Positions 2,741-57,560 of a DNA stretch of 64,000 nt are shown one piece after another. Source of the DNA: a virus. The notes beneath the pieces are model-generated. The model worked only from the letters and a program-made list of their open reading frames with translations. It searched no databases and was not told where the DNA came from. The translations under genes and the position numbers were made by a program. The DNA lies in IMG/VR virus record IMGVR_UViG_3300002132_000107, positions 1-64,000 of that record; one strand, given 5' to 3'. Position 1 is the stretch's first letter, and each line of letters starts with the position of its first letter.

Positions 2741-5674
2741 TTAAATACATAGTCCTGATTCTATAACTACACTAGATGAGTTTGTTACAACATAAGTTCC
2801 ATTAACTAGACCCCAGTAACCAGCTCCCATAGGAGCGCCAAAATTATTGGTTTGATACAATGTATCTCCGTCTGTTGGATATGTTCCACTACCCGTGTGG
2901 TATCTTGTTGCTCCATGTCCTGCAGCGCAAGCGCTTGCTGTAGAGGTTTCAGGACTTGCATTTGTTAAGAATGAAGTAAGAGCAGGTTGCACAACACCTG
3001 AAACAGATTGCGTTATTGTAATATTTGAACTAGGTATTGTTCCGTTTATAGTACCAGTCCCGTTATTGCTTGCTGAATCAGTCCAAGTAGGCCCTGACGT
3101 AAATGCATAACCTGAATTAGCAGTTATAGTATGAACAAATTGATATGCATCACCTGCGTCACCTGTTATAGTGGCACTAGGAGTTAGACTAGTTGTGGTG
3201 TTTGCAAAACCAGTTACATTATTGCTAAATGCTAAAGTAACCGTATATTGTACCGGTGGTACTGGGCACACTAAACAAGATCCAACTGATACAGCTACTG
3301 AACCTGCTGATTGTTTTTGGAATGGCATGTATACACCTTGATATTTAACTTGTACCACATCATTTATATTCATACTACTCACAAACGATGCATCTATTGA
3401 TGTTGCCCCACAAATATCACACACTCCTACGTGATACATTGTTATTGGTGTAGTTTCTGCTGCATTACATATTGTGAATATTGAAAACGTATATCCAACA
3501 TTTATATTACAACTTGGTGGAGGCGCAACTGCAATAGTACCAGACACATTGGTAGTAACCGTAGTGTTTGCAGTAATAGTACCCGTGTTAGGATTAGGTG
3601 AAACTGTAGGTCCTGATGTCCACACATAACCGTTAGGTATTGAAGCCCCAGAGCTAAACGAATATGTAAACGGAGATGCGCCAGATTGCGTAGCACCAGT
3701 TTGGTCACCAGTTGGTGTATACACTTGCGCCCCTGCTATATTATAATTAACTTGCAATGTAGCGTCAACCGGCGGCGTATAAGCAGCTATTGTACCTAAT
3801 ATTGATGTTGTTTCATTGTAAGTTCCACCCACTTGTTTTTGGCCAGAAGCATCGGTAATGTAAGGGCCATCTGTCCATGCATAATTAGCGTTTGCAGGGG
3901 CAGTAGTAGTAAACGAATAATTAAATGGTACAGGACCAATTTGCTGCGCACCATTTAAATCACCTGTTAAAGTATACCATGAAGTGTTCCCAACAACTTG
4001 GCTTTCATCTATAGTCAAGTTAACAATTGCATTACTTGTTTGTAGTGCTAACGTACCTGTTATGTATGTAAATACAGTTTGCGAGCCTGATATACTACCA
4101 GAAGCATTGGTTATGGTTGGTCCAGATGAAAAGTAATATCCGTTATCAGCGGTAATCCCTGTTGTGAAAGAATAACTAAGTGGGCAGTTGCCAGATTGAG
4201 TGGCCCCTGTTTGATCACCACTTAAAGTAAATTGACCACCAGATATGCCACTAGTATCTACACTAAGTGTTGCTACGCATGGTGGTGGAGGAATAACTTG
4301 TACCTGTCCACTTATTGATGTAACCACTGTTTGATCTCCAGTCAATGTACCACTAGCATTTGATATAGTAGGACCCGTTACAAACTCATAGCCAGCAATT
4401 GGTGTAACCGTAGTATTAAAAGCATAAGCTAGTGGGGAAGCACCGGATTGTGTAGCGCCATTTAGATCGCCACCTATTGTATAGGCTGTTCCAGCAGAAC
4501 CGCCGGTAATGGTATTAGATATACTAAGGGTGGCTGTAACCGGTGGCACTACAATAGCCTCTACAGTACCCGCTAATATAGTATATACAGTTTCATCCAC
4601 ACTGAATGTTCCAGTGGCGTTTGTAACCGTAGGGCCTGAAGAAAAGAAGAATCCAGCGTTAGGGGTAATTGAAGTACTGTATGCATAGGATGCCCCCGCT
4701 ATCCCCATTTTGGTAGTTCCGACTTGGTCACCACCTATTGTGTATTCCGTACCAGATATATTATTAGTAAATGCCAATGTAGTCATATACTGGCTTGCAG
4801 CCGCCACCACTACATATAATGTATTTGCGTTCTTTGTAACTAGTGCCGCATATTCCGTCCCACTTAGACTTACCACTTGTTGTACTGCACCAGTACTTGT
4901 AAATGTATCCGTGTCATTTCTAATATCCCCTGTGTCGCCAGCATCAATATATGCTTTAACATTTGTAAGTGCATTTATTGGTAAAGCCGCTAATGTAGTT
5001 GTTTTTACATCTGTAGAAGAACTTTGATTAAACGCTATAAAATCATTGCTTATAGCCGTTGTTTGGTTTTCACTAAACTTAATATAGTTATTTAAACCCG
5101 TTAGGTCAACACCTATAACAGGGTTAACAGTGGCAGATCCACTAACTATATATAAACCACTACCAGTGGTAACACTTGTAACTGTTCCAACCGGTAGTCC
5201 AGACACCCCAATTGTAATCGCATTTGATCCGTTATTTGTCAATGCAATATTTGGACCAGCCAATAAAGAAACTATAGTTTGTGAGGAATCACTTCCATTC
5301 AACCTAATGTTATTATTCAAACCAGCTTGTACGCTGTTTATTGTATATGTAGTATTTGTGCCCCCAGGTACAGCAGCCCAGACATTATCACCTCTAAGAT
5401 AGTTTGAAGCAGATGGTGTACCAGAAGCAGTTAGACTAGCGCTTAAACTACCCGTAGTGGTTATATTACCCCCAATCAAACTAATAAAAGTAGTGGCAGT
5501 AGTATCAATACTAGTTACAGTTCCACCACCCGGTACACCTGTTTGTACTAAGTCTACAATGCTCTGTATTGAGAATGATTTTGTCGGTTTTCCCGATGCA
5601 CTAACATCCGTACCTAATAATAGGTCACCAAATGCTGGCTGTGTTGCTTGCTCGTAACTATATACTATTGCCAT
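2741..5674 (-). CDS. Tail-fibre-like protein with Ig-like tandem repeats
   Basis: 977 residues, starting MAIVYSYEQATQ with a DLLLGTDVSASG segment that mirrors the neighbouring paralogue. An LRGDNVW fibre motif lies near residue 93. From about residue 300 to 725 there are five modules of roughly 80-88 residues with the recurring pattern TYTIGGDxxGATQSG ... YSF ... GYxFxSGPTxTNASG ... ISG, and a divergent further copy near 815-905. A Cys-rich insert (CNAAE, CDICG, CLVCP) separates them. The repeats look like extracellular beta-sandwich modules. Likely a distal tail fibre or adhesin. The receptor is unknown. Confidence 0.78.
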   Translation of the reverse strand: MAIVYSYEQATQPAFGDLLLGTDVSASGKPTKSFSIQSIVDLVQTGVPGGGTVTSIDTTATTFISLIGGNITTTGSLSASLTASGTPSASNYLRGDNVWAAVPGGTNTTYTINSVQAGLNNNIRLNGSDSSQTIVSLLAGPNIALTNNGSNAITIGVSGLPVGTVTSVTTGSGLYIVSGSATVNPVIGVDLTGLNNYIKFSENQTTAISNDFIAFNQSSSTDVKTTTLAALPINALTNVKAYIDAGDTGDIRNDTDTFTSTGAVQQVVSLSGTEYAALVTKNANTLYVVVAAASQYMTTLAFTNNISGTEYTIGGDQVGTTKMGIAGASYAYSTSITPNAGFFFSSGPTVTNATGTFSVDETVYTILAGTVEAIVVPPVTATLSISNTITGGSAGTAYTIGGDLNGATQSGASPLAYAFNTTVTPIAGYEFVTGPTISNASGTLTGDQTVVTSISGQVQVIPPPPCVATLSVDTSGISGGQFTLSGDQTGATQSGNCPLSYSFTTGITADNGYYFSSGPTITNASGSISGSQTVFTYITGTLALQTSNAIVNLTIDESQVVGNTSWYTLTGDLNGAQQIGPVPFNYSFTTTAPANANYAWTDGPYITDASGQKQVGGTYNETTSILGTIAAYTPPVDATLQVNYNIAGAQVYTPTGDQTGATQSGASPFTYSFSSGASIPNGYVWTSGPTVSPNPNTGTITANTTVTTNVSGTIAVAPPPSCNINVGYTFSIFTICNAAETTPITMYHVGVCDICGATSIDASFVSSMNINDVVQVKYQGVYMPFQKQSAGSVAVSVGSCLVCPVPPVQYTVTLAFSNNVTGFANTTTSLTPSATITGDAGDAYQFVHTITANSGYAFTSGPTWTDSASNNGTGTINGTIPSSNITITQSVSGVVQPALTSFLTNASPETSTASACAAGHGATRYHTGSGTYPTDGDTLYQTNNFGAPMGAGYWGLVNGTYVVTNSSSVVIESGLCI

Positions 5675-24517: not shown

Positions 24518-27500
24518 TTAAAAATCTAAATTTTTACTAGAAGATCTTCTTCTTCTTTTTTTAGCATTCCTAGCTTTTTCAATTTCTGGATCTTTTAATC
24601 CAATATCCCAAGAATTATAACCTAAAAATAAAGCCGTACGCTGCCATGCCTCCGCGTCTTGTTGAGTAATAGCTTTTATATTTGAAACTTTAGTAAGAAC
24701 TCTATCTAATGGAAAATTAAATGCGGCCGAAACTAAATTACCACCTATTTGATAATATGGATGATTAGGATTGTCATAGCCAATTTTGTCAAGTATTTTT
24801 TTATTAAACTTGTAACTTTCCATTGCTCCATAAATTTTCCTGGCTTTAATTCCTACAGCTGGAGATATGTTTAATAGCTCTATAATAACTTTTCCGTTTT
24901 GCCCAGTAAATCCTTTATCATTTTCACGCATCCATGCAATCGTTGCATTTTTTAAAGTAGCTAAAGCTGCTCCGCCAATTCCAGATCCACGTAATGCGCT
25001 ATCTAACATTGTATTTATAGCTCTTTCTGTTTTTTTATCTATTTTTAAATCTTCATCTTCGTCATCTCCAAATACACCTGCAAATAAAGCATTTTGTAAA
25101 AATGCAAATATAGTGTTTTGTATTGCGCCATAATAAACAAGCCTAGCCACATTAGCTTTAAAACTGCCTCTTCTATTTATTAAATCCAACATAGCTTTCT
25201 TTTGTATGCGTGTCATCTGCATAGTTGTGTTTTGGAATGCTAAGAATATTCTTCCAATAACACTAACCTGCTGGTTAGATAATAAATCCTGTCTTGAAGA
25301 TTGTTGAGTGCGCTCTGCTATTTCTTGAAAATCTAAAAAAGCCTCTTCTTTGGCTTTTGCTTCAGACATTCCCTCTTTAATATATTTTTGTTCTCTATTA
25401 TATAAAAATGGCGCGCCTCCAGTTGCTACTGCAATATTATCTCCATATTTAGTAAGAGAAAAACCTTTTTCTAAAATATAAGATAATAAAGCTTTATTTT
25501 TATTTTTGCTACCCTCTAATCTAGCAACAAGCTCAGACTCATTTATATCTGTTTTTAAGCCTTGTCTACGCTCTTTCATCCAATCAGAGTTAAATATATC
25601 AACCCAATATTTTGCGTATGTTGCGGGGCTTCCTGCAATAAATTTACCTTGAGCAAAAATATTATTATCTTCCCAGTTTGTAAAGTTAACAATAGAAAGT
25701 TGTTGTAGCAATGCCGATCTAGTGTTAAAAAACATGGTAACCCCAACAGAACCTCTTACCCAATCTAAATATGCGTTAGCTAATTTGTTATTACCTATTT
25801 GTCTTGCGCGCCCGTTTTTAATTCTATAAAGCATATCTTCTAATGCTGATCTTAAATCAGGACCATAAGCTGCCTCAATTTTGTTTATATTTTCTTTAGA
25901 AAATATTATATCAGCATTTGTAATAAATTTTTCAAATATTCTTGCTCTACCAATTTTACTTAATATTTCTTGCAAGTCCATTTCAATGGTACTAGCTGTC
26001 CAATCTTCTTCTGGTTTTAGCCAACTTTCTTTTTTATTTGGAACATTAATAAGATCTTCAGCAAAAGTAAGTAAAGACATATCAGAAACAACTGATTTTA
26101 TTAAAGCATTTTTGTCTGTTTGACTTATTCCGGGAACATCGTACCCTAGTTTTGACCACATATAAACTCTAACCGCGTCATCATTGCTGTAGTATTTATA
26201 ATCACTTTCTGCTCTTAATTTTTTTGTTATTCCTTTATTTGCTTTAATTAAATTATGATAACTTTGTTTTATTAATTGTCTTTCAGCATTTAAATTAAAG
26301 TTAGCTCTTGCTAATGGTTTAAGGAGTTTTTCATCCATAAATTTCATGTCAGCATCTCCTTGCTTGCCTGTACCATAAAAATTATATAATAAACCAGCAA
26401 AATCATCAGCTCCGGGCGGTATAAATATTTTTAATTTGCCTTTACCTTCTCCTATTTTTTTAGCGGTTGCATTAGATATTAATTCATTTTCACTAATACC
26501 TTTTTTGCGCTCAAGCATTTTATTAAATTCAATGCTCATTCCTAAAGATGCTTTTGAAGTTTCTTTATTATTATAACTTTCTTTAGTTATAATTTCTCCA
26601 TTAGTCATTCCAGGTAATCCTATTATTTGTAAATTAATATTTGACGGTAAATTTTCAAAATATCTTTGTAATACATCTAATGGTGTTGCATTAAAAAAAT
26701 CAAAGCCTTTGTTCATTGAATTTTTAACATTCATTTCAGAATTTAAAGTAGTATCAAAGCTTTTTTGCGTTAAAGATGCAATCCTTAATTTTTTAATATT
26801 TTTAAATTGTTCATCGGATATTCTGCCTATAACATTTCCTATAGATAAATTAGCAAATAACAAAGCGGGTAGCATGTGCTCATAAACATATTTAATTCCT
26901 TTGCTATTTAAATTTTTAGTTATATAACTTAAATCATAAGAATTTTTTAATGGCGTGGACATATGCTTTAGCTGCCCAGCATATATTAAACCAACTGTAG
27001 TTAGATCTATTTTTAAATTAGGATCTTTTGAATTGTATAATTTTTTTACAGTAGCATGCAAATCATCGAACAAAACTTTAGACTTATTTACTTCTAATGT
27101 TCTTCCTTCTACGTTAATTTGTTTTGGGTCTGCACCAATTAAATCATCTGATCCAGGAAATGGTTTTAATGGTGTAAATTTATAAATATTTTTATTTTTA
27201 TAATATATTGATGTACCTATAATCTCTTTTGTTTTAGAATCTAAAACATTTTCAGCTTTAAAATTTTTTGTTAATATACCATCAAACGCATCTAAAAGAC
27301 CTTGATTATTTCCAAACAAAGTTTTGTTAACACCACTAGCCCAAGGTTTATTAAGGGTTTTAAGCATAGAAATCATTTGCGTTTCTTTCTGGCTTTTAGT
27401 GGCATTAGGTGTTTTAAAAGAATATAAATTCCACCACTTTTGTATAAATGCTTTGCCTCGATCTTTGTTTTCTTGTTTATTAGGGCTAAGTCCAAAATAT

Positions 27501-30500
27501 GGCAATCCAACCACCGCGGAAACAACTTGATCTGGATCAAAATCTTTTTTATCAATTTCATCAATAAAATCTAAAAATTCATTTGTTGATTTGTATTTTT
27601 GGTTTATTAATTTTCTTCCAATATCAATATAATTATCTTTAATTGCTCCAACAAGATTTAATATGTTATTTTTTTCAATGTCCGAAAACTTATTACTAAA
27701 AATAATTTTATAAGCTTCTTCAAAATTTCCATCATTTAAAGCTGTCCTTAAAACATTTTTAAATCCATTTAAAAATAAAGCTTGTTTTTCTGGAGATAAA
27801 TCTTTAAGAAATTCTATATCCGCACCTAAAGATAGTTTGGCTATACCTCTTGGCAATGTTTTTTCCATTCCGTCTATTACTTCCTCAGCTTTTATTTCAG
27901 TATAAAGTTCTGATATATTTGCTATAGATTCAGTAAGAATTCCTCCTTCACTTAAATCTTTTAGTATAACTTCAAAACCTTTTTCAGAAGCAATTTGCCG
28001 AGCTAAAGAAAAAATAGCATTAGTTTTTATTTTATTACGTAACGCTCCATCTTGAAAATGATAATCTACATATTCATTTTCTTTTACCGCTTCTTTAATT
28101 TTTGGATTTCTTTTAATAAACTCAGGCCCTGAAGTCATACCCCTCCCGGCTGCATTATCTCTATCTATTTTAAGCTTATTGCCTTTTTTATCAATCCAAT
28201 CATATTTATATTCTGAAATTTTAGTAGGGGCAACCCATTCTCCGTTAACTCTTTTGAGTATGCCTTTTCTAAAAAATGGATGTTTAGATAAAAATGTAGT
28301 TGTAAAATTATTTAAAAAAGCTTCCCTATTATCTATTAAAAATTGCTCTAATCCTTTTTCTTTTATAAATTTAATAATATCTTTTTCAGCAAAATCAGCA
28401 ATATCTTTTTTTAAGTCAGCTACAAAAGGGGTTATAGTTCTATTTTTAGTTGTTTCAATATTAAATTTCTTTATATTTAAAACAATTGCTTTGTTTATGT
28501 TTTTTACAAAACTTTCATCTAACTCTTTTGTAAATTTAATTTTTTCTGATAGTAATGCTTTTTTCTGAACGGGCTTTTCTTTAGCGATTTCTTCTGAAGC
28601 TAACATTGAATCTTCGGCGGTTTCATCGGACATTAAGTCTTTTTGTAAGGTGGCATCAGATGTAAAACCTAAACCTCCCTTTTCTTGAGTAGATTCTACA
28701 CCAATTTCTTTAGCTAAAGAATTTGCACGGGCATTCATAATAAATGACATGTACTGGTCTACGGTTTGCCCCTTGCCGGGTTTAAAATCAGCCATTTGCA
28801 GGGAAGCATTGGTTATAATTGCCCTTAAGTATTCTGTTTTTGTTACCCCCCTCAACGAGTCAGGGTTAATTTTACTAAATAAACGCTGTGTAATTGATGT
28901 TGCTAGCTTTATCACTTGTGTGCCAAATATTGAGTCCTCAACTCTCCCCTTAACATCTTTGCCTTTACTGTTATAAGTTAATGTTTCATTAACTAGTTTA
29001 GTTACATTGCCGTCGTATTTATCATATAGTTCTTGCAAGTTATTATATTGAGGTTTATTAGAATCATCTATTTGGTTTTGAGGTACATTATTTGCTAATG
29101 AAAGCTTTTTGTCTTGTAATTCTTCTTTGTAAAATTTAATTTTTTTACCTCTTTGAATAAAATTATTAAAAGAATTTAAATGCAAAATAACATCTTGCGC
29201 TCTTCCTACAATTTCACTTGCTCCGGCGTTAATGCCGAATGCTCCTAAAGCTTGTGATCTAATGCCGCTTATATAATTAGAAAATTGATAAGCTTTGTTT
29301 TCTAAATCGCTTTGTTTTATATAACCATTTTGTAAAAGCTCATAATAAAGATTTTGAAATTCTTCATTTAATTGTGTATCTGAAATTTTAGTGTCTTTAT
29401 ATTTTTGCATTCTTGCTAAAGCAAAGTCGTATACGCTTCCTTTAATTTCTTCATTTTCTTTTTTATTTTTTAAAATATTTTTTAATTCTTCAACTGCTTC
29501 GTTAAAACGTTTTTTGTCTTTAAAAATAAAGTTTTTAGAAGAAGTATATTCATGCAGTGTTTCATGTAAAGGGGTCATAGCTGCGGTGGCAGCATCAAAT
29601 TCGATAGATTCCGCTTCGCTTATAGCCGCAGTTATAGCGGCAGAGTTTAATAATTTTGTTTTACCGTCGTCTGCAATTATACCATATGAGCTTTTTATCT
29701 TTCTTTTCCCTGTTTTAGGATCTATTTCAACAAACATTAAATCTTTGACTTCTGCGTCAATATCCTCATCTGATTTTTCCCTAAAATAATCATTCTTTTT
29801 TAATTTAGCAAGTCCTTTATTAGAAAGCGCCGTTATATCAAAAGCCTCAAGTGCTATTAAATCAAAATCATCCAACTCTAATTCAATTAAAGCATTTCCA
29901 GATGCTTGACTAAGTTTTTTATTAATTTGGTATTTTTGCCAAAGAAAAATAGATTCGGCAGATTTAATTTCTTCTGGTACAGTTGCTTTTTCAACGGATT
30001 TTATAATTGCATTTTTTTTATTAGAAAGCCCCTGTAGTTGATCTTTTAAATTTTTTACACGTTTTCTCGTAGCTTCATCACCAATTTTAAAATTATCAGT
30101 AGAGGCTAATTGTGCTACTTCTCTATATATTTTATTTATTTTTGCATCTACATCAAATAATTCTTTTGCTTGTGACTCGCTAAAATTATCTAAGTTTGTG
30201 GCAATATATTGATTTAAAGTAGCTGCTTTTTTAAGAACATTCCCCATTTGTTCTTGAACATCTTTTTGATTCTCTGGATTTAGAGATTCCTGAAGATTAT
30301 AGTATTCTTTTAAATATTTTTTAAACAATACTTGATCCACTTTAGATTTTCCGGCATTAACTAAACTATTGGTTAACGTCATTGAATTTATCCCGCCGCC
30401 AACTAACAAAGTTGAAAAAGTAGTACCAGCAAAAAATTCAGGCGTAAATCCGTCTAAAAGAGACACATCCATTCCCATTATATATCTATCCCCTAAATTT

Positions 30501-32677
30501 TGAAAATATTGAGTACCCATTTCTTCTATATTTTCTACTCCAGACATAACGCTCCTGCCAATGGCTATTCTACCTAGTTTAGGCAAAACTCCTTTTACTC
30601 CAGCCGTCGTTAAAAATCTTCTTGCAGATTTACCAATAAGTACATTACCAAATTGTTCAAACCCAGCTTCTAAACCACCATGAGCTATAGCTGAGCCTCC
30701 TGTCCTTATGAGCCCATAATCTTGTAATTCTATTTGATAATTTAATTCTTTTTTAATTTGATTAACTTCAAATTCAGTTAAATTTGTATTTTTTAATTGC
30801 TCTTGTAAAGCTATAACTACTTGCGAAGCTAATCCTTGAGCTTCTTTAATATCATTGTATTTTGTACCAGTAGAAGATATAAAAAACGTAGGAATGGTTG
30901 TTTTCCCTATTTCAGACAACGCTGTTCCTACTTTACCTAACAACCCAACGCCTTTAGCGGCAGCGCCTAAACCGCCTAATCCACTTAAAATTGTAGAAGG
31001 AGCATTATCTGCGCCTATTTCTAAAAGAACATCCATAAATGACGCCCCATATTTTTGATCCTTAAATTCTAACGGAGCCGGTATTTTTTTGCCTTCCTCT
31101 TTTATGCCTTTAGAAATTATAGACGCTTCATTTGAAATTATATCAAACACGCTTGTCGCTGAGGCGGTTGGTAATCCAAATTTAGCGCTCGAATAATTTT
31201 TATCTAAAGCAGAAAGAATATCGGCGGCTAATTTTACTGTACCAGCTACTCCTCCCACGGTAAATTCTGCGGTTCTTTGCGAAACTCTTGAAAAAAGATT
31301 ATAATCATAATCCAAGGCCTCCTTCATTAGCCCCTCATCTTTTAAATTGCCTATTTTATCATAATAAGCCTCAATATCTTTACTTTGCCTTTGTTTTATA
31401 TTAACTAAGTTATTTACAGAATATATTAAATCTTTATTTTTATTAAACAAATTTGTAATTTCTTCTACTTTTTGAGCATGAAGAGCTAATAAATCTTTTG
31501 AATTAGGTTCTTTTAATAATTGTTTATTAATTTTTTGAAGCTCCGATGACAAATTATCTAACCCTGCAACAAAAGGGGCTGCTTGTTCAGTTAAATCCTT
31601 ATTTAATTTTACTAAATATTTATTATTGTCTTGTAACTCTTTTCCTACTTCTTCGGCATATTTGTTAGCTTGTTGCGGTGTTTCAAAATCAAAATTTTCA
31701 TTAAAAATTCGCATATCTTCTTGCTGACCTTCCGGGAGATCGTCTATTGCGTTTCTTAATTTTCTTTTTTGAAGAGTATTTTCTGCTATTTTTTCTGCAG
31801 TATTTTGTGATTGTTCATCTGATATTTCAAATACGCCAGTTTCTTTCCAAGAAACGTAATCATCATATTTGTTGCCTAAAATGTTTTTATAAAATTTGTC
31901 TTTATTAATATCTAGATCTACCCCAGGGGCTGGTCCTTTTGATGTTAGTACAACTTTATTTTGAAAATCTTTTTTGTATTCTTTTTCAATAGCGTCAAGG
32001 CCAAAATAAACATTAGCGGCTTCTTCAGCTATTTCTGTTTCAGAATGGATTTTACTTTTATTATTTATTTCGTCAAATATTTTTTTATTATTTTTTCTTT
32101 TTAAAGAAGTGTTTTTAGGGGTTCCAATAACCTCGTCAAGCTTTGTAACAATTTCTGGGTATATTATTTCAACCCTACTGCGCATACCAGCCGTTTTCTC
32201 TGTCCTTGACCTATCTCTTTGTAAACTATTTAGGTACTGATTAAGTGTTAAATTATATTGTTTTGCTGTGTTTTCAATTTCTTCAAAAGAATAGGGCGTG
32301 CCATCTATTTTTATTATTGTTTTGTCTTTTAACTCTTTTTTTTCAAAATCTGGGTCTCCTTCTTTGGTTTGAGGAAGAACCCCTAATCTACTAGCCGTAA
32401 TAGGGCTTTTTTCTTGGCCATTTATTTGTACAAAGCTATTTTGTAATTCCGAAGAACCATTTTCCAATGTGGAATCCGTACTTTGCACTTGAATTTCGGG
32501 TGCTGCAGTTCCCGCCGCAGGCGCACCCTGTCCCTGGCTTGTTTGCTTTCCCGTAGCGTCTTCAATTTTTTTTAAGTTTGGATTTTTAGCAAAAAGCTCA
32601 TCCATTGTGTATCCTTTACTTGACGCAACTTGCTCTAATTGCTCGTATGAATATGTTTTGCCATTAAGTTCGTACAT
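24518..32677 (-). CDS. Giant internal-virion-type polyvalent protein (2719 aa)
   Basis: The largest gene of the window. N-terminal duplication: NGKTYSYEQLEQVASSKGYT (residues 5-24) recurs as DGTPYSFEEIENTAKQYNLT near 120-140. Glycine-rich hydrophobic stretches near 530-600 and 770-790 could insert in membranes. A zinc-protease-like HETLH lies at 1038-1042. About 1290-1330 reads like a compact helical module (VDQYMSFIMNARANSLAKEI). The C-terminal third (MFFNTRSALLQQLSIVNF, IFLAFQNTTMQMTRIQKKAM) matches what I recall of giant ORFs in marine phages. Such proteins are probably packaged and ejected with DNA. Confidence 0.8.
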   Translation of the reverse strand: MYELNGKTYSYEQLEQVASSKGYTMDELFAKNPNLKKIEDATGKQTSQGQGAPAAGTAAPEIQVQSTDSTLENGSSELQNSFVQINGQEKSPITASRLGVLPQTKEGDPDFEKKELKDKTIIKIDGTPYSFEEIENTAKQYNLTLNQYLNSLQRDRSRTEKTAGMRSRVEIIYPEIVTKLDEVIGTPKNTSLKRKNNKKIFDEINNKSKIHSETEIAEEAANVYFGLDAIEKEYKKDFQNKVVLTSKGPAPGVDLDINKDKFYKNILGNKYDDYVSWKETGVFEISDEQSQNTAEKIAENTLQKRKLRNAIDDLPEGQQEDMRIFNENFDFETPQQANKYAEEVGKELQDNNKYLVKLNKDLTEQAAPFVAGLDNLSSELQKINKQLLKEPNSKDLLALHAQKVEEITNLFNKNKDLIYSVNNLVNIKQRQSKDIEAYYDKIGNLKDEGLMKEALDYDYNLFSRVSQRTAEFTVGGVAGTVKLAADILSALDKNYSSAKFGLPTASATSVFDIISNEASIISKGIKEEGKKIPAPLEFKDQKYGASFMDVLLEIGADNAPSTILSGLGGLGAAAKGVGLLGKVGTALSEIGKTTIPTFFISSTGTKYNDIKEAQGLASQVVIALQEQLKNTNLTEFEVNQIKKELNYQIELQDYGLIRTGGSAIAHGGLEAGFEQFGNVLIGKSARRFLTTAGVKGVLPKLGRIAIGRSVMSGVENIEEMGTQYFQNLGDRYIMGMDVSLLDGFTPEFFAGTTFSTLLVGGGINSMTLTNSLVNAGKSKVDQVLFKKYLKEYYNLQESLNPENQKDVQEQMGNVLKKAATLNQYIATNLDNFSESQAKELFDVDAKINKIYREVAQLASTDNFKIGDEATRKRVKNLKDQLQGLSNKKNAIIKSVEKATVPEEIKSAESIFLWQKYQINKKLSQASGNALIELELDDFDLIALEAFDITALSNKGLAKLKKNDYFREKSDEDIDAEVKDLMFVEIDPKTGKRKIKSSYGIIADDGKTKLLNSAAITAAISEAESIEFDAATAAMTPLHETLHEYTSSKNFIFKDKKRFNEAVEELKNILKNKKENEEIKGSVYDFALARMQKYKDTKISDTQLNEEFQNLYYELLQNGYIKQSDLENKAYQFSNYISGIRSQALGAFGINAGASEIVGRAQDVILHLNSFNNFIQRGKKIKFYKEELQDKKLSLANNVPQNQIDDSNKPQYNNLQELYDKYDGNVTKLVNETLTYNSKGKDVKGRVEDSIFGTQVIKLATSITQRLFSKINPDSLRGVTKTEYLRAIITNASLQMADFKPGKGQTVDQYMSFIMNARANSLAKEIGVESTQEKGGLGFTSDATLQKDLMSDETAEDSMLASEEIAKEKPVQKKALLSEKIKFTKELDESFVKNINKAIVLNIKKFNIETTKNRTITPFVADLKKDIADFAEKDIIKFIKEKGLEQFLIDNREAFLNNFTTTFLSKHPFFRKGILKRVNGEWVAPTKISEYKYDWIDKKGNKLKIDRDNAAGRGMTSGPEFIKRNPKIKEAVKENEYVDYHFQDGALRNKIKTNAIFSLARQIASEKGFEVILKDLSEGGILTESIANISELYTEIKAEEVIDGMEKTLPRGIAKLSLGADIEFLKDLSPEKQALFLNGFKNVLRTALNDGNFEEAYKIIFSNKFSDIEKNNILNLVGAIKDNYIDIGRKLINQKYKSTNEFLDFIDEIDKKDFDPDQVVSAVVGLPYFGLSPNKQENKDRGKAFIQKWWNLYSFKTPNATKSQKETQMISMLKTLNKPWASGVNKTLFGNNQGLLDAFDGILTKNFKAENVLDSKTKEIIGTSIYYKNKNIYKFTPLKPFPGSDDLIGADPKQINVEGRTLEVNKSKVLFDDLHATVKKLYNSKDPNLKIDLTTVGLIYAGQLKHMSTPLKNSYDLSYITKNLNSKGIKYVYEHMLPALLFANLSIGNVIGRISDEQFKNIKKLRIASLTQKSFDTTLNSEMNVKNSMNKGFDFFNATPLDVLQRYFENLPSNINLQIIGLPGMTNGEIITKESYNNKETSKASLGMSIEFNKMLERKKGISENELISNATAKKIGEGKGKLKIFIPPGADDFAGLLYNFYGTGKQGDADMKFMDEKLLKPLARANFNLNAERQLIKQSYHNLIKANKGITKKLRAESDYKYYSNDDAVRVYMWSKLGYDVPGISQTDKNALIKSVVSDMSLLTFAEDLINVPNKKESWLKPEEDWTASTIEMDLQEILSKIGRARIFEKFITNADIIFSKENINKIEAAYGPDLRSALEDMLYRIKNGRARQIGNNKLANAYLDWVRGSVGVTMFFNTRSALLQQLSIVNFTNWEDNNIFAQGKFIAGSPATYAKYWVDIFNSDWMKERRQGLKTDINESELVARLEGSKNKNKALLSYILEKGFSLTKYGDNIAVATGGAPFLYNREQKYIKEGMSEAKAKEEAFLDFQEIAERTQQSSRQDLLSNQQVSVIGRIFLAFQNTTMQMTRIQKKAMLDLINRRGSFKANVARLVYYGAIQNTIFAFLQNALFAGVFGDDEDEDLKIDKKTERAINTMLDSALRGSGIGGAALATLKNATIAWMRENDKGFTGQNGKVIIELLNISPAVGIKARKIYGAMESYKFNKKILDKIGYDNPNHPYYQIGGNLVSAAFNFPLDRVLTKVSNIKAITQQDAEAWQRTALFLGYNSWDIGLKDPEIEKARNAKKRRRRSSSKNLDF

Positions 32678-32691
32678 ATTATTTAATTTTA

Positions 32692-34200
32692 TTAATTGAA
32701 GTCAGAGGTTAGGTCGTTAATTTTTAAATCTAATAAAGCGTCTTTTCTACTTCCACCATATCCAGAAAATTTAACATAGTATTCATATAAGCTTTTTACA
32801 CTATTTGGATCTGATAAATCGTAAGTTTTAATTTTTGCTGGTTCTGCAGCAAATTTGTCTGTAGCGGGTTTTGCTTTTTCTATTTCAATTTCAATTATAT
32901 TTGGTTTTGCATTAGGGAAATGTGGGTCACTAATTACGGATTTAACTCGATCAGCAAATCCTGTTTCTTTTAAAAAGCCTAAAGGATCTTTCATAAAATT
33001 ATTATAAATTTTTTGGGCTGTTGCATCCTTCGTAGATGGTGGCGGAGATGTAACTTCTTTTAAAGGAGTTACAGATCTAAAATAAACTTTTTGACCATCT
33101 TTTTCGTATGATTCAAATTGCTCTCCAATGCCCTCAATCGTTTTTTCTTTAAACATTTGAGAAATTATTTTGTCTTGCTCGCTTGGATTTTTTACTTGTT
33201 CTAAAAAGTCATTGTAACTTCTGTAGGGAGCATCTAATTGGTTTGAAAAAATAGCATTTTTTTCTAGCGGAGGCAAAGTGTTAAACCCGGCAACAGATGC
33301 TGAAATTTCTTTTCCAATTAAATTATCTATTACTGATTGATTAATTTCCTCAATTTGTCCTTCTACAAGTTTCCTACCTATTTTTTTACCATCAGCATTA
33401 ACAACGTCTTGATATATTCTTTTTGTAACTACTTCCCCTACTACCTCTGGCAACAACTCGCCTTTGGGGTTGGTTATAATTTTTGTAGATGATTTTATAA
33501 TATTTTCTGTCATTTGAGGTATTTCATAAAACAACTCACTTCCTGAAGCTAAATAATTATTACTATTAAATCCTTCAACTTTCCAGTTTTCTTTACCTAT
33601 TTTTCCGTAAGCATTTAAATTTAATGAATTTGAGTCGGGGTCGTATTGTAAATCTATGTCTCCAGTTGAATCTCCTGCCAATAAATTAAGCAAACCTAAT
33701 CTGTTGGCTCTATCTGCTTCGTCTACGCCTGTGACACCATATGTTTTGTTTAAATCCCCTGGATTCCTACCTTTCCACGCCCCAGCCTCGCCTTTTATTT
33801 CTTCCAAAAAAGCACCAGTGTTTATTAAAAAACTATCTGCATTTTGAATAGTTTTTAAAAGCTCACCCCTTGCTTTGGGGTCTGATTCATTGTATAAATC
33901 CATTTGCGCGTCTCCAGCAGCTTTAATTCTTTCGTCTATAATAGAATTAAGCTTTGTGTTTAAAGATGTCTTAGGCAGGTTAGATTTAAATTCAGCCGCT
34001 CTTTTGCCACTTTCAATATCAATTTCAGTCTGTAGCTCTCTTAGCCTTGCTGTTTCAGCTTCTCTTTGCTTTTTTATTTGATCAGCTTTTTCAATAGCTG
34101 TAGCAACGCCTCTTGCCATACTTTGACCAAATGAAGCAAAGCCTTGTGCTAATATTTCCCCTGACTTATCAGTTATTATTTCTGGATTTCTATAACTCAT
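32692..34200 (-). CDS. Virion-associated protein, 502 aa
   Basis: Starts MSYRNPEIITDKSGEILAQG. Residues about 18-60 form a long helix (ADQIKKQREAETARLRELQT). The rest is polar with many Asn, Lys and Ser, without known motif. Lies between the giant protein and the small internal protein, 14 bases upstream of the giant gene, so an internal-core or DNA-ejection component is likely by analogy with T7 gp14-gp15-gp16 order. Sequence similarity to those is not evident. Confidence 0.6.
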   Translation of the reverse strand: MSYRNPEIITDKSGEILAQGFASFGQSMARGVATAIEKADQIKKQREAETARLRELQTEIDIESGKRAAEFKSNLPKTSLNTKLNSIIDERIKAAGDAQMDLYNESDPKARGELLKTIQNADSFLINTGAFLEEIKGEAGAWKGRNPGDLNKTYGVTGVDEADRANRLGLLNLLAGDSTGDIDLQYDPDSNSLNLNAYGKIGKENWKVEGFNSNNYLASGSELFYEIPQMTENIIKSSTKIITNPKGELLPEVVGEVVTKRIYQDVVNADGKKIGRKLVEGQIEEINQSVIDNLIGKEISASVAGFNTLPPLEKNAIFSNQLDAPYRSYNDFLEQVKNPSEQDKIISQMFKEKTIEGIGEQFESYEKDGQKVYFRSVTPLKEVTSPPPSTKDATAQKIYNNFMKDPLGFLKETGFADRVKSVISDPHFPNAKPNIIEIEIEKAKPATDKFAAEPAKIKTYDLSDPNSVKSLYEYYVKFSGYGGSRKDALLDLKINDLTSDFN

Positions 34201-34210
34201 TTTTTTTTAT

Positions 34211-34320
34211 TTAACTTAACCCATAATCGTTACTAGCGCTGCTTGTTGAATATATGCTAGGATTTCTATATGTTTCTAGTGCTTTATTGTTAACATTCAA
34301 CCCCCTGCTCGGGGTTGCTA
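34211..34320 (-). CDS. Predicted -1 frameshift extension of the internal virion protein (36 residues)
   Basis: In the -1 frame, reading continues past the TAG for 36 codons (VATPSRGLNVNNKALETYRN, then PSIYSTSSASNDYGLS) to TAA 34211. It has no ATG of its own and fills the otherwise unusually long gap to the next gene. The composition is protein-like. I infer a minor C-terminally extended product. An independent gene would have to use TTG. Confidence 0.55.
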
Positions 34321-34327
34321 CTTTCCC
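34298..34327 (-). promoter_or_regulatory. Candidate -1 programmed frameshift signal
   Basis: On the leftward RNA: slippery heptamer G GGA AAG in the zero frame (34321-34327), TAG stop, then after 3 bases a perfect 7-pair stem CAACCCC/GGGGTTG with a 6-base loop. XXXYYYZ plus stop plus stem is the classic layout. The spacer is shorter than the usual 5-9 bases. No T-tract follows, so it is not a terminator. Confidence 0.6.
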
Positions 34328-35037
34328 GCCAGTGCCCCCGCAATACCTCCAATGGAACTTATAGCTCCACTCCATGCCGCTGCGCCTGCTTGGTTGGCTT
34401 GGGCTACATTGGCTCTTGATTGGCTTTCTTGACCAGAGAACCTATCTAATTTCGCATCGTCTCTTTGCTCTTGAGTTTGGAATTTAAATTGCTTGCCAGC
34501 AGCTTCCGCTTGTTGAACTCTTTGAGCTTCGCTTATTTGAACACCCTGAACTCTTTGTTGTTCTGACATTTTTGCCTGCTGTAATTGGCTTTCTCCTTGA
34601 GCCCTTAGTTTTTCATTTTGAGCCTCTTGTTGTTCAATGCTCGCAGAAACACCTTTTTTACTTTGCAAAGCAGCTTGCGCTAATGCTGTTGCTCCTCCTG
34701 CCCCAGACCCAGTAGCTCTAATTGTGTCTAAAGTATTAGCTAAAGCTATATCGGCTTCTTCAATTTGCATTTCAGCGGCTTGAGTAGCTACACCTAAACT
34801 TTGGAAAGGATTGCTTAATTGACCACTTAAATCAGCGGCAAGGCCACTAACATTTGTAACACTTTCATACGGGTTTACAACCGGCTGACGAGTATTTTCT
34901 AAATAATTAATTTTAGCTTCTGCTACTTTTCTTTGCTTTTCGGCGTTTTTCGCTTGTTTTTTAGCTTTAGCACTACCTAATATACCTCCTAATAAAGATA
35001 TTCCAGCGCCAATACCAGCTGCAATAATTCCTGCCAT
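34318..35037 (-). CDS. Internal virion protein (T7 gp14-like architecture), frame 0 product
   Basis: ATG 35037 (MAGIIAAGIGAG) is chosen; an upstream in-frame start at 35067 would overlap the cupin gene. 239 residues: a glycine-rich hydrophobic N-terminus (GIGAGISLLGGILGSA), then a long Ala/Gln/Glu-rich coiled region (QQAKMSEQQRVQGVQISEAQ), and a Gly/Ala-rich end. This matches the size and composition of short-tail-phage ejection proteins. The frame ends in TAG at 34318 right after a slippery GGGAAAG and before a hairpin, suggesting a longer frameshifted form. Confidence 0.72.
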   Translation of the reverse strand: MAGIIAAGIGAGISLLGGILGSAKAKKQAKNAEKQRKVAEAKINYLENTRQPVVNPYESVTNVSGLAADLSGQLSNPFQSLGVATQAAEMQIEEADIALANTLDTIRATGSGAGGATALAQAALQSKKGVSASIEQQEAQNEKLRAQGESQLQQAKMSEQQRVQGVQISEAQRVQQAEAAGKQFKFQTQEQRDDAKLDRFSGQESQSRANVAQANQAGAAAWSGAISSIGGIAGALAGK

Positions 35038-43223: not shown

Positions 43224-44666
43224 TTATGCAGATGCAGTAAACAATACAAAATTGTTAGCCGCTTGAACTACAAGACATCTTTCAGAAAGGAAGTGTACTT
43301 CCATAGCATCAAGAGCAGAAGTGTAAGCTCCACCTACAGAACCAGTGATCCAAGATTTCATTCTTCTGTCGTCAGCTTGAGAAGCTCTGTATCGTACGTG
43401 TAAGAATGGTCTTCTAATATTTGTTCCTAAGATTTGATCGTAAACTGTAGAAGTTCCAGCAGGAACTAATATACCATCAATACCAGATCCTACTTGTCCA
43501 GCTCCGTTAGAAGCACCACGAGTAGAAGCATCGTTTAAGTATTTCCAGTCAGTTTTATAGAAATCGTAAGAACCTCTTCTGAATCCAGTGAAACCTAAGT
43601 TTAACGCCATTTCAGCAGAGTTTTCGAATAATCCGTAAGCAGTACCACCGTTTGCACCAGAAGATAAACTAGCTAACATATCATCAAAATCTAATGAAGT
43701 TTGTCTGTTTAAGAATAACATGTTTTCTTCAATAGCTCCTTGAGTATCTAAGTTTTTCAAGATGCTATCAAATTCAGCTAACCCAGCATTTGCTGTAAAG
43801 TTGTTTAATACGTTACCTCTTGATTGTACTGCGGCAAATAAACCTTCAGTACCTTTGTAACCATCAGCTCCTAAAGTAGAAGTTCCAGAAACTAATTCAC
43901 CTTCAACTACTGCCATTTCTAAGTAATCCTCAAAACGCAACCTAGTTTCAGATTCAGCTTTTAAGTACCATAAGTATCCAGATGCTCCATCTTCAGTGGC
44001 TACTTCAACCCATCCAATTTGTGCAGTATCAGATCCAGAGATAGCATATTTCTCTTTGATAATAATTGGAGAGTTAGAGAACTGAGTAAAAGAAGGAGTT
44101 ACAGACTTAATATCAGAATCTGTAGTTCCTTTTTTGTATTCAGAACCATAAACGAAGATCTTAAGAGCCCCAGCTGTTGCGGATAAAGCTGTCATATCAG
44201 CCGCAGTATAAGGCTTAACTGTAATAGTAGCTAAAGTAGCTGATGTGTTAACACTATTAGTAACAAAAACTTTGATGTCTTGTCCTGTTGCAGGATCAAT
44301 AACTACTAAAGTTTGATTTTTAGAGATAACGTTAGCCACAAAGCTAGGGCCTGCAGTTGCATTTAATGCAAAAGTTAAAGTGGTTTCTGTAGCTTTAGTT
44401 ACAGTATCATAAGCGATATGTAATCTGTTTTGCTCTGACCATACTACCTGATCTGAAGACATTGGCATTTCAGCGCCAACCATCCTTAAGAATCCAGATA
44501 GAGTTCTATTTCCATAACGCTCTACTTCAGCCTCATAGATTTCTGGTAAATATTGTTGTGCGAAATCATTTCCAGATCCGTCTGTAAAGTTTAAATAATT
44601 GCTCTCAAGAAGTTGTTGTTTTTGAGATGGTTTAATTGACCCATAAACGGGTGCGACTACTGCCAT
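43224..44666 (-). CDS. Major capsid protein
   Basis: 480 residues, immediately downstream of the scaffold gene and followed by a strong terminator, the usual place for the most abundant structural gene. N-terminus MAVVAPVYGSIKPSQKQQLL; a central SYLWYLKAESETRLRFEDYL-type helical segment; C-terminus RRPFLHVRYRASQADDRRMK and MEVHFLSERCLVVQAANNFV, resembling capsid ends in uncultured Bacteroidota phages as I recall. An HK97-like fold is inferred from gene order. Confidence 0.85.
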   Translation of the reverse strand: MAVVAPVYGSIKPSQKQQLLESNYLNFTDGSGNDFAQQYLPEIYEAEVERYGNRTLSGFLRMVGAEMPMSSDQVVWSEQNRLHIAYDTVTKATETTLTFALNATAGPSFVANVISKNQTLVVIDPATGQDIKVFVTNSVNTSATLATITVKPYTAADMTALSATAGALKIFVYGSEYKKGTTDSDIKSVTPSFTQFSNSPIIIKEKYAISGSDTAQIGWVEVATEDGASGYLWYLKAESETRLRFEDYLEMAVVEGELVSGTSTLGADGYKGTEGLFAAVQSRGNVLNNFTANAGLAEFDSILKNLDTQGAIEENMLFLNRQTSLDFDDMLASLSSGANGGTAYGLFENSAEMALNLGFTGFRRGSYDFYKTDWKYLNDASTRGASNGAGQVGSGIDGILVPAGTSTVYDQILGTNIRRPFLHVRYRASQADDRRMKSWITGSVGGAYTSALDAMEVHFLSERCLVVQAANNFVLFTASA

Positions 44667-50525: not shown

Positions 50526-50797
50526 TACTTAGATCTACCTTCAGCGAAACCTCTGAAATTTTTTTGTGGTGTATCAGCGGATTCATCATTTAACAATTGT
50601 TCTTCTTGTTCAATACGTGAAAGTATTTCAAAAGCATCGAATATTGCTAATTTCTTTGTAGCAGCCGCATTTTTTAATCTATCAGCTGATATATCATCAT
50701 CTGAATCAACAATTTTTTCTCTAGCTACTTTTATTAATTCCTCAACTGCTTTTTGCCCAGCTAGGATTATTTTCCTCTTCGTTTCCTTGGTATTCAT
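50525..50797 (-). CDS. Candidate terminase small subunit, 90 aa
   Basis: A helical 90-residue protein (MNTKETKRKIILAGQKAVEE) with an internal DDDISADRLKNAAATKKLAI and FDAFEILSRIEQEE helix. Its last base overlaps the terL start. Small DNA-recognition terminase subunits commonly sit here and are helical, so this is my best guess. No helix-turn-helix is obvious. It overlaps the GroES-like gene by 56 bases. Confidence 0.5.
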   Translation of the reverse strand: MNTKETKRKIILAGQKAVEELIKVAREKIVDSDDDISADRLKNAAATKKLAIFDAFEILSRIEQEEQLLNDESADTPQKNFRGFAEGRSK

Positions 50798-51347
50798 ATT
50801 TAATTACAATATCATTAGATTTCATACAGTACAATTTCTTTTCGTCAACTACAAACTCAAACTCTCCACCCGGTGTATAACCAATAAGGTCCCCAGGATT
50901 GATTTCTAGCGCTTGTAAGGAACTATTACCATATTTAAGTATACCAATAAGCTTTTGCTCTTTTTCAAGAGAGAAGCTGTCTTTATTTTTAATTGGAACA
51001 ACAAAACATCTATCATTAAAAGTTTTCCATTTTTTTGGTTGTCCATATAAATATATTTGATCTGGTGCACAAAAATATAAATCATCCATAAACATAGATC
51101 TACTATCTTTTTGTTCACCTCTCATGTCGTAAAATCTTCTAAAAACATTATGGTGTATTACAATTATATCACCAACACTTATTCCTGTATCATACGCTAA
51201 TGGCGTAGCTACAACTTCTGCAAAATTATTTACAGATTTAAATGTTTCTATTGATGAGTTTGTAATTAATGTTTTATCCCCTACTTTTTTCTCATTATCA
51301 TAGCGCTTCCCAACTGGCTTCACAATGAAGTCGTAAATACTTCTCAT
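50742..51347 (-). CDS. GroES-like (chaperonin-10 fold) protein, 201 aa
   Basis: 201 residues. GroES-type segments: an early KPVGKRYDNEKKVGDKTL, then VVATPLAYDTGISVGDIIVI, and a repeat of the fold at ALEINPGDLIGYTPGGEFEF with KLYCMKSNDIVIKYEY. It looks like two related Cpn10-like parts. Phage co-chaperonins replace host GroES for folding of large capsid proteins. A separate canonical GroES occurs at 55760, and GroEL at 56004, so this one is probably a divergent paralogue. Confidence 0.65.
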   Translation of the reverse strand: MRSIYDFIVKPVGKRYDNEKKVGDKTLITNSSIETFKSVNNFAEVVATPLAYDTGISVGDIIVIHHNVFRRFYDMRGEQKDSRSMFMDDLYFCAPDQIYLYGQPKKWKTFNDRCFVVPIKNKDSFSLEKEQKLIGILKYGNSSLQALEINPGDLIGYTPGGEFEFVVDEKKLYCMKSNDIVIKYEYQGNEEENNPSWAKSS

Positions 51348-55763: not shown

Positions 55764-56020
55764 AGAACAACGACTACATCCTGTAGTTTTATAATATGAT
55801 AAACATTTTTTTTAATATCTATCTTGTGTCCAGCATGGCGATCATAATAAATTTTATCACCTTCTTTAATACCAGCTGTATCATTACCAACAGAAATTAC
55901 ATCAGCTAATATATACCTAATATCATCTCTTTGGTTTTCAGCAAGAAGTAAACCACCTTTTGTGGTTGTCGTACCTTCTTTAACTTTTTGTATGATTAAA
56001 TTACTACCTATTGCTTTCAT
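55760..56020 (-). CDS. groS: Co-chaperonin GroES
   Basis: 86 residues, close to the usual 95. Matches the fold in order: MKAIGSNLIIQKVKEGTTTT, a mobile-loop region, ILADVISVGNDTAGIKEGDK and IYYDRHAGHKIDIKKNVYHI. Its start overlaps the end of groL by 17 bases, so here groL precedes groS, opposite to the normal bacterial order. With GroEL it would help fold the capsid or the giant proteins. Confidence 0.85.
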   Translation of the reverse strand: MKAIGSNLIIQKVKEGTTTTKGGLLLAENQRDDIRYILADVISVGNDTAGIKEGDKIYYDRHAGHKIDIKKNVYHIIKLQDVVVVL

Positions 56021-57560
56021 TAACCCTTAAGTTATTAATTACACAATCCGTAGATAAAATAGTTGTAGCTACTGATGCTGCATTTCTTAATGCACTTTTG
56101 GTAACTAATAGAGGATCAATGATCCCGTGTTTAATCATATTAACTTTTTTGCCAGTTATCACATTTAGACCCATTCCATCCCCCATTGCGGATTCCTTAT
56201 ACTCTATACCCGCATTCTCTAATATGGTCTTAAACGGCGCCTTAATAGCGTCTAGGAGAGCTTGCTCCCCTACTGACTTAGCTTTTATATTTTCCGATGC
56301 GTTTAATAAAGCAATTCCACCACCAGGTACAATACCTTCTTTGATCGCAGCTTTAGTTGCGCAGATAGCATCTTCTACCCTATCTTTCTTTTCTTTTAAT
56401 TCTATTTCTGAATTAGCACCTACTTTTACTATAGCTATTTTAGCTGCTAGTCTTGCTAATCTTTTTTCAAGCTTTACTATTTCGTAAGGCTCTTTAGTTG
56501 TGACAAGTTTTTCTTTAATACCTTTTATAGTATTTTGAACCTCTTCTGAAACTTCTCCAACTTGTAATATTGTTTCTTCGTCTGTAGTTACACTTTTTAT
56601 ACAATTACCTAGGTATTGAGGATTAATTAAATCTAAATCATCTCCTAAGTCTTCGTTTATAATAGTAGCACCAGTTAGCATTGCAAGATCATCTAATGTT
56701 TCTTTTTTAGCTACACCATATGTTGGTGCATTGATAACATTAATCTTTAAATTACCTTTAACTTTATTCATTGCTAAAGTTGCAAGTACTGGTTGGTCTA
56801 TGTCTGCAATTACAAGTAAAGACTTATTACCTTTTATAACAAACTCTAGCACGCTTTGAATTTGTCTAATATTATCAATTGGTGATTCAACTAATAATAC
56901 ATAAGGGTTTTCTAATTCAGCAACTCTTTGACTTTTGCTTGTAACAAAATGTGAGTTCGTTAGCCCTTTGTTATATTGTACTCCGTCAACTATTTCTACT
57001 GCTGTAGTACCATCTGACGATGTTTCCATCATAACTACCCCCGTTTCATCAACTGCTCTAAAAGCATCACCGATTAGTTTACCGAGCTCTGCATCGTTGT
57101 TTGTTGATATAGTTGCAATTTGATCTATCATATCGCCACTAACATCTACTGAAATTGACTCTAAGTATTTAACTACTTTTTCAACAGCGTTGTCTATACC
57201 TATTTTTAAATCTCTTGAACTAATTTTATCAGCTACATTGTAAGCTTCAGTTAGTATAGAGTGCGCTAATACAGTTGCGGTTGTTGTACCATCACCTGCT
57301 TCGCTTACGGTTTTTCTAGCAGCTTCTTTTAAAAGTGTAGCCCCCATATTTTCTACAGGATCTAATAGTATAATACTATCTGCTACTGTTACACCGTCTT
57401 TTGTTATAATTGGTCTTCCATTTCCATCTTCTAGCATCACACATTTACCGCTAGCCCCGAGTGTGGAACTAACGGCTTTTGTGAGTTTTGTGATACCTTC
57501 AAATACTTTATCCTTAGCTTCATTACCGAAACTTAGGTTCTTGACAATTGCGTCTGACAT
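56004..57560 (-). CDS. groL: Chaperonin GroEL
   Basis: 518 residues (usual about 545). The nucleotide-binding motif GDGTTTAT is at 89-96, with GVTVADSIIL, GGGIALLNAS and other family blocks in order. The C-terminal GGM-rich tail of bacterial GroEL is missing. A full chaperonin in a phage suggests heavy demand for folding of large virion proteins such as the 2719-residue protein, or a need for a host-independent chaperonin. Confidence 0.93.
   Translation of the reverse strand: MSDAIVKNLSFGNEAKDKVFEGITKLTKAVSSTLGASGKCVMLEDGNGRPIITKDGVTVADSIILLDPVENMGATLLKEAARKTVSEAGDGTTTATVLAHSILTEAYNVADKISSRDLKIGIDNAVEKVVKYLESISVDVSGDMIDQIATISTNNDAELGKLIGDAFRAVDETGVVMMETSSDGTTAVEIVDGVQYNKGLTNSHFVTSKSQRVAELENPYVLLVESPIDNIRQIQSVLEFVIKGNKSLLVIADIDQPVLATLAMNKVKGNLKINVINAPTYGVAKKETLDDLAMLTGATIINEDLGDDLDLINPQYLGNCIKSVTTDEETILQVGEVSEEVQNTIKGIKEKLVTTKEPYEIVKLEKRLARLAAKIAIVKVGANSEIELKEKKDRVEDAICATKAAIKEGIVPGGGIALLNASENIKAKSVGEQALLDAIKAPFKTILENAGIEYKESAMGDGMGLNVITGKKVNMIKHGIIDPLLVTKSALRNAASVATTILSTDCVINNLRVNESNR

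Follow-up and report, generated by a model that had tools for sequence, protein, structure and literature searches.

An internal, ejection-type virion protein gene of a phage very probably carries a programmed -1 ribosomal frameshift signal at its 3' end, from which a minority, C-terminally extended form of the protein would be made. The window in which this gene lies is a stretch of 64,000 nucleotides that forms part of a 71,928-base virus record in IMG/VR (IMGVR_UViG_3300002132_000107) and has a GC content of 34.6%. An earlier note on this DNA had put the gene forward as a frameshift candidate, and the recurrence of the arrangement among homologues, together with signs of selection on the predicted extension, lends support to that proposal.

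The signal and its recurrence among homologues

The gene lies in a minus-strand operon, where terminase, portal and the capsid-region genes are followed by two large structural genes and a gene of 148 aa; after the gene itself come one of 502 aa and one of 2719 aa. The features discussed below are as follows.

34321..35037, minus strand: zero-frame coding sequence of the predicted internal (ejection-type) virion protein, 239 aa, likely start ATG at 35037 (the reading frame extends to 35067 if started at TTG), with a profile match to Cellulophaga, Flavobacterium and Tenacibaculum phage virion proteins
34321..34327, minus strand: slippery heptamer GGGAAAG, in frame as G_GGA_AAG, directly before the stop
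34318..34320, minus strand: zero-frame stop codon TAG
34298..34317, minus strand: predicted hairpin with stem CAACCCC (34317-34311), loop GAGCAG (34310-34305) and GGGGTTG (34304-34298)
34214..34321, minus strand: predicted -1 frame extension of 36 codons, VATPSRGLNVNNKALETYRNPSIYSTSSASNDYGLS
34211..34213, minus strand: stop codon TAA of the -1 frame
32692..34200, minus strand: next gene of the virion operon, 502 aa, with its ATG at 34200, positioned as the structural-annotated genes in Cellulophaga phages
43224-44666: likely major capsid gene (phrog_13704), in the same place as Calle_1 gp009, which is annotated as major capsid

The 3' end of the gene reads GCG GGA AAG TAG, and the elements described earlier (the zero-frame TAG, GGGAAAG directly upstream and a 7-pair stem 3 bases past the heptamer) are exact to the base on the minus strand. 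The hairpin is a perfect 7 bp stem with a 6-nt loop, begins 3 nt past the heptamer and stands out from shuffled sequences with z = -3.45 (p = 0.005, close to the floor for 400 shuffles). Its position and 6 of its 7 pairs are kept in L002, the nearest relative of the window, while the loop is changed. GGGAAAG occurs in frame 2 times in the 12,087 minus-strand codons of the window, one of them directly before this stop. The -1 frame opens at GTA (34321-34319) and, as had been claimed, stays open for 36 codons to 34211, ending 10 nt before the next gene. The accompanying statement that it contains no start codon holds for ATG and GTG and fails for TTG, which is found at codon 7 (counted from 0).

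Seven IMG/VR scans yielded 192 distinct homologues besides the window, for a family of 193 members (labels such as L002 refer to these sequences). The downstream gene is known for 189 members, which we split at a gap of 50 nt into 32 members with at least 50 nt and 157 with less. A heptamer, defined as GGGAAAN or AAAAAAG in phase and within 2 codons of the stop, is present in 24 of the 32 gap-bearing members versus none of the 157 others (Fisher p = 7e-24, which is too small because the sequences are related and not independent), and among the sequences compared this association is not a matter of chance. The same heptamers occur in frame elsewhere in these genes only 9 times in 47,386 codons. 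All 24 heptamer members have at least 14 open codons in the -1 frame, whose stop, with one exception, falls in the range from 8 nt inside the next gene to 31 nt ahead of it, and mostly 2-31 nt ahead, near normal operon spacing. Members without the feature have a median spacing of 13 nt between stop and next gene. The rule having been fixed, an eighth scan added 14 new sequences, in which heptamer and tail were found in 2 of 2 with a gap and the heptamer in 0 of 12 without one. Together with L381, whose next gene lies beyond the contig, about 27 distinct sequences from many samples thus carry the arrangement (24 + 2 + L381), and the shift is always -1. The earlier note had asked whether heptamer and extension are conserved, and had regarded homologues with a normal stop and no extension as evidence against frameshifting. 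Beyond the window, the combination of heptamer, stop and -1 extension is found in about 26 distinct homologues, mostly together with a hairpin; homologues of the second kind are also numerous, as 157 of the 189 members lack any such arrangement, but these lack the heptamer and the gap as well.

The canonical heptamer is missing in 8 of the 32 gap-bearing members, and variants such as GCT TTT TAG (L027) and GAT TTT TAA (L223) are seen at the gene end. Three further loci depart from the pattern in other ways. L387 (about 3570-3730), and also L385, has a 123-nt gap in which the +1 frame rather than the -1 frame is open for 39 codons past TTT GGG TAA C and closes ahead of the next gene; this may be a +1 counterpart of the arrangement or else an indel. 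In L085, near 3648, a TGA lies just upstream of an otherwise canonical GGGAAAG-TAG arrangement. L084 is identical to L085 in its body over the tree columns, yet has GGGGGAG-TAA and a different tail.

We also assessed the downstream structure in 25 strict-heptamer members by taking the best perfect stem starting 2-9 nt downstream. The mean stem score was 11.7; shuffles averaged 6.2 (combined p = 1.7e-10) and control positions 7.1, and 60% of the 25 members scored at least 12 versus 14% of control positions. The stems lie mostly 3-7 nt past the heptamer, and their sequence varies (GCCCA/TGGGC, AGGGGC/GCCCCT, AGCCG/CGGCT and others) while the distance to the heptamer is kept. A predicted hairpin at short distance thus accompanies the in-phase heptamer near the zero-frame stop in most members, and is absent or weak in a minority comprising L154 and L009 and L383, the last two having no stem of the tested type.

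On this basis, most ribosomes would stop at UAG and produce the 239-aa protein, while for a minority a one-base backward slip at G_GGA_AAG would lengthen the product by 36 residues, to 275 aa. The most likely route would be a tandem -1 slip over the heptamer, promoted by the hairpin that follows and probably also by the stop codon right after the heptamer. Because the stop directly adjoins the heptamer in most members, slippage of the P-site tRNA with the stop in the A site is a possible alternative, which the variants in L027 and L223 would fit. The zero-frame stop is TAG in 18 of 24 frameshift members versus 17 of 157 others, an excess that hints at a role for termination speed. In E. coli, G_GGA_AAG is a highly shift-prone heptamer (PMC5009743), and for phage Privateer the longer capsid protein predicted from GGGAAAG was detected by mass spectrometry (PMC7881722).

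A -1 product could also arise through slippage of RNA polymerase rather than of the ribosome, a known alternative at runs of one base (PMC5009743). The A_AAA_AAG members, with their runs of six or seven A, would suit such an origin, but most sites are GGGAAAN with runs of only three or four, the heptamers are in phase for tandem tRNA slippage, and the hairpins lie 3-7 nt downstream; we therefore consider polymerase slippage very unlikely. Readthrough of the stop codon was rejected, as the zero frame stays open past the stop for a median of 8 codons, versus 31 for the -1 frame.

Coding character of the extension

The substitutions in the extension are those of a protein read in the -1 frame. 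Between the window and L002 this frame shows pS 0.38 and pN 0.06, and comparable values were obtained for L027-L342 (pS 0.50, pN 0.07) and L233-L397 (pS 0.35, pN 0.08), while purifying selection is not evident in the close pair L009-L383 (pS 0.05, pN 0.07). In three of the four closest pairs, then, the extension appears to be under purifying selection in the -1 frame. Pooled over eight pairs selected for their similarity, substitutions at the three -1 frame codon positions number 46/29/70 (p = 1.5e-4), and gaps in the extension alignments are mostly multiples of three. The protein-like content ascribed to the extension from the window alone is thus borne out by both selection and codon-position bias. 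A counterpart read in frame also exists: the -1 extension of L176, RPPVEVGEEWGSYTPSL, matches the in-frame C-terminus of L179, KPPTEVGETWGSYTPTL, its near neighbour on the tree, with a score of 84 that exceeds all 14,670 shuffled comparisons (maximum 59). A weaker likeness, with a score inside the shuffled range, is seen between the extension of L008 and the in-frame tail of L030. For the window, the predicted peptide across the junction of the zero and -1 frames is AGALAGKVATPSR, and the predicted C-terminal tryptic peptide of the extension is NPSIYSTSSASNDYGLS.

These results bear on three further explanations. The extension might be a separate small gene with its own start or with re-initiation after the stop, in keeping with the ATGA over the stop of L154 and with the ATG, GTG or TTG contained in several extensions, including the TTG at codon 7 in the window. 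However, 12 of 25 -1 frames contain none of these three codons, L002 among them, and a separate gene leaves unexplained both the heptamer pattern (24 of 32 versus 0 of 157) and the in-frame version of the L176 peptide in L179, which makes it highly improbable. A hairpin that acts as transcription terminator, as RNA-processing site or in some other intergenic role, with the heptamer there by coincidence, would fit the presence of a GC-rich stem between two genes of an AT-rich window, but no T run follows the stem, an Rfam search gave no match, the stems of the homologues hold their distance to the heptamer despite their differing sequences, and codon bias and selection act in the -1 frame; we regard this possibility as extremely unlikely. 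Finally, although relatives L179 and L030 do have in-frame tails, we give next to no credence to a sequencing error, which the earlier note had allowed for, or a recent frameshift mutation that split a longer gene and left a decaying remnant, as about 27 distinct sequences from many samples share the -1 direction, the heptamer and mostly the hairpin, the -1 frame is under purifying selection, and the fused homologue L179 is a different, diverged phage.

Gain, loss and exchange of tails

With programmed frameshifting as the preferred reading, the two forms of the protein would share their body and probably co-assemble in the virion; how many of the subunits bear the variable C-terminal tail would then depend on the slip rate, with a fixed minority being long. 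We infer this ratio of long to short forms, the incorporation of the long form into virions and a role of the tail as a minority docking or interaction peptide. Such an arrangement suggests that these phages need the tail on only some copies of the protein, which would call for a structural reason such as a symmetry mismatch or a single contact point.

The frameshift trait is scattered on a quick tree built without bootstrap, with 20 changes, at least 10 of them forced by well-supported branches. The clearest case of exchange is the pair L233 and L397, whose DNA is 91% identical from heptamer to stop, compared with 56% upstream and 64% downstream; at the protein level identity is 86% in the tail, 52% in the body and 32% over the first part of the next gene product. 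Conversely, L375 and L397 have nearly the same body and different tails. Body, tail and next gene therefore seem to have been inherited partly independently, and in the case of L233 and L397 the alignments show signal and tail moving together between diverged phages by lateral exchange. Simple docking of the tail to the next gene product was not supported, since tail type does not follow that product, and no copy of a tail was found in another gene within the fetched loci.

It is possible, though we hold it only tentatively, that signal and tail travel between diverged phages as a mobile recoding cassette that extends from the heptamer as far as the next start codon, a reading supported by L233 and L397. 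Through this cassette a small share of the ejection-protein subunits would receive a single interchangeable peptide at the C-terminus, and the gene would alternate in evolution between frameshifted, in-frame and no tail. If so, the tail would be a rapidly changing point of contact with a partner specific to the host or the phage. In either case, the scattered distribution and the swapped tails offer natural experiments on the gain, loss and exchange of such signals. Separately, L018, L021 and L035 have an in-frame C-terminal extension starting SDRRLKENIK or SDRRLKKNIK, which we take to resemble the intramolecular chaperone (peptidase S74 type) domain of tail spikes and which is odd on a small internal protein.

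Identity of the protein and comparison with known systems

The terminase and portal of the window match those of Flavobacterium, Cellulophaga, Tenacibaculum and Maribacter phages and of the uncultured podophage MW202828 (terminase 63%), and the host is therefore probably a member of the Bacteroidota; the family of uncultured phages to which the window belongs is related to phages of marine Bacteroidota. We take the Flavobacterium and Cellulophaga relatives to be of the short-tailed type, partly from their record names. Gene UOF82505 of MW202828, in a similar place, was considered as a counterpart and is not similar to the protein. GroEL-like and GroES-like genes are also found in the window (56004-57560 and 50742-51347) and in Flavobacterium and Cellulophaga relatives. 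The 2719-aa protein (24518-32677) sits where Cellulophaga phages have a very large structural protein, and gave no PHROG match and no significant Pfam match.

Pfam and PDB sequence searches with the frameshifted protein gave no significant match, and tblastn of the protein against 50,697 phage records gave none, nor did one homologue used as query with E up to 1; isolates were thus reached by gene order only, and no cultured phage with this frameshift arrangement was found among those records. The predicted structure, with a mean pLDDT of 79.8, is helical and contains long helices spanning residues 81-109 and 113-238. A PDB fold search returned generic helices only, and the best viral fold match is named 'internal virion protein' (E = 1.4e-3), as are several weaker ones, helical proteins being prone to match loosely. 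Profile comparison with the same-place gene of cultured phages gave 97.8% (E = 9e-13), a score that helical composition may inflate. Cellulophaga phage phi18:3 gp120 is annotated from MS/MS, and phi38:1 gp099 from its similarity to phi18:1. Likeness in profile to a family one of whose members is annotated from MS/MS, combined with conserved gene order, thus supports assignment as an internal virion (structural) protein of Bacteroidota phages, the label that had been proposed from the window alone.

To our knowledge, recoding signals have been little studied in this host phylum. Frameshift-extended virion proteins from capsid and tail genes are well established (T7 and T3 gene 10, A2, Listeria phages, phiEco32-like phages), and the present case would extend phage programmed frameshifting to an internal, ejection-type virion protein. 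A literature search covering open-licence papers found no description of frameshifting in such a protein, an absence that is itself weak evidence.

The closest cultured counterparts, phi38:1 gp099, phi18:3 gp120 and Flavobacterium phage elemo gp20, share the place in gene order and the profile similarity; they lack the frameshift arrangement and end within 3 nt of the next gene. A relationship to the T7 internal core (ejection) protein gp14 is at most suggestive: gp14 is likewise small and helical and is followed by a protein of about 500 aa and a very large one, an order analogous to T7 14-15-16, although the match is weak (best E 1.4e-3). We know of no frameshifting in T7 gene 14.

The lambda-like tail chaperones G/GT also rely on a -1 shift, late in a short ORF, with G_GGA_AAG-type heptamers among those employed (PMC5009743). 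However, the lambda chaperones act in the tape-measure assembly of a long tail and are not found in the mature virion, whereas the homologous family here is annotated as virion protein in phages taken as short-tailed; no resemblance to a T domain was noticed. The MS/MS-based annotation of phi18:3 and the short-tailed type of the relatives argue against identity as a G/GT chaperone. In Lactobacillus phage A2 and Listeria phages A118, A500 and PSA, frameshifting likewise adds a C-terminal part to a structural protein, with direction -1 or +1 among relatives (PMC5009743). Those are major head or tail proteins, some with Ig-like extensions, compared with 15-49 residues of no recognised fold on an internal protein here.

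T7 gene 10 (10A/10B), T3 gene 10 and the capsid genes of phiEco32-like phages and Privateer are parallels in that a virion protein gene, through a -1 shift close to its 3' end, also yields a C-terminally extended second form found in the virion (PMC7881722, PMC9965538, PMC5009743), the corresponding product here being predicted from sequence. The capsid genes of Privateer and YF01 even use the same heptamer, GGGAAAG (PMC7881722, PMC9965538). A capsid frameshift of the 10A/10B type was nevertheless rejected for the window, where the frameshifted gene is distinct from the likely capsid gene and lies seven genes downstream of it. In T7, T3 and phiEco32-like phages the frameshift lies in the major capsid gene, while here it would act on an internal protein that is small and helical, with a short tail that varies and appears to be swapped from phage to phage.
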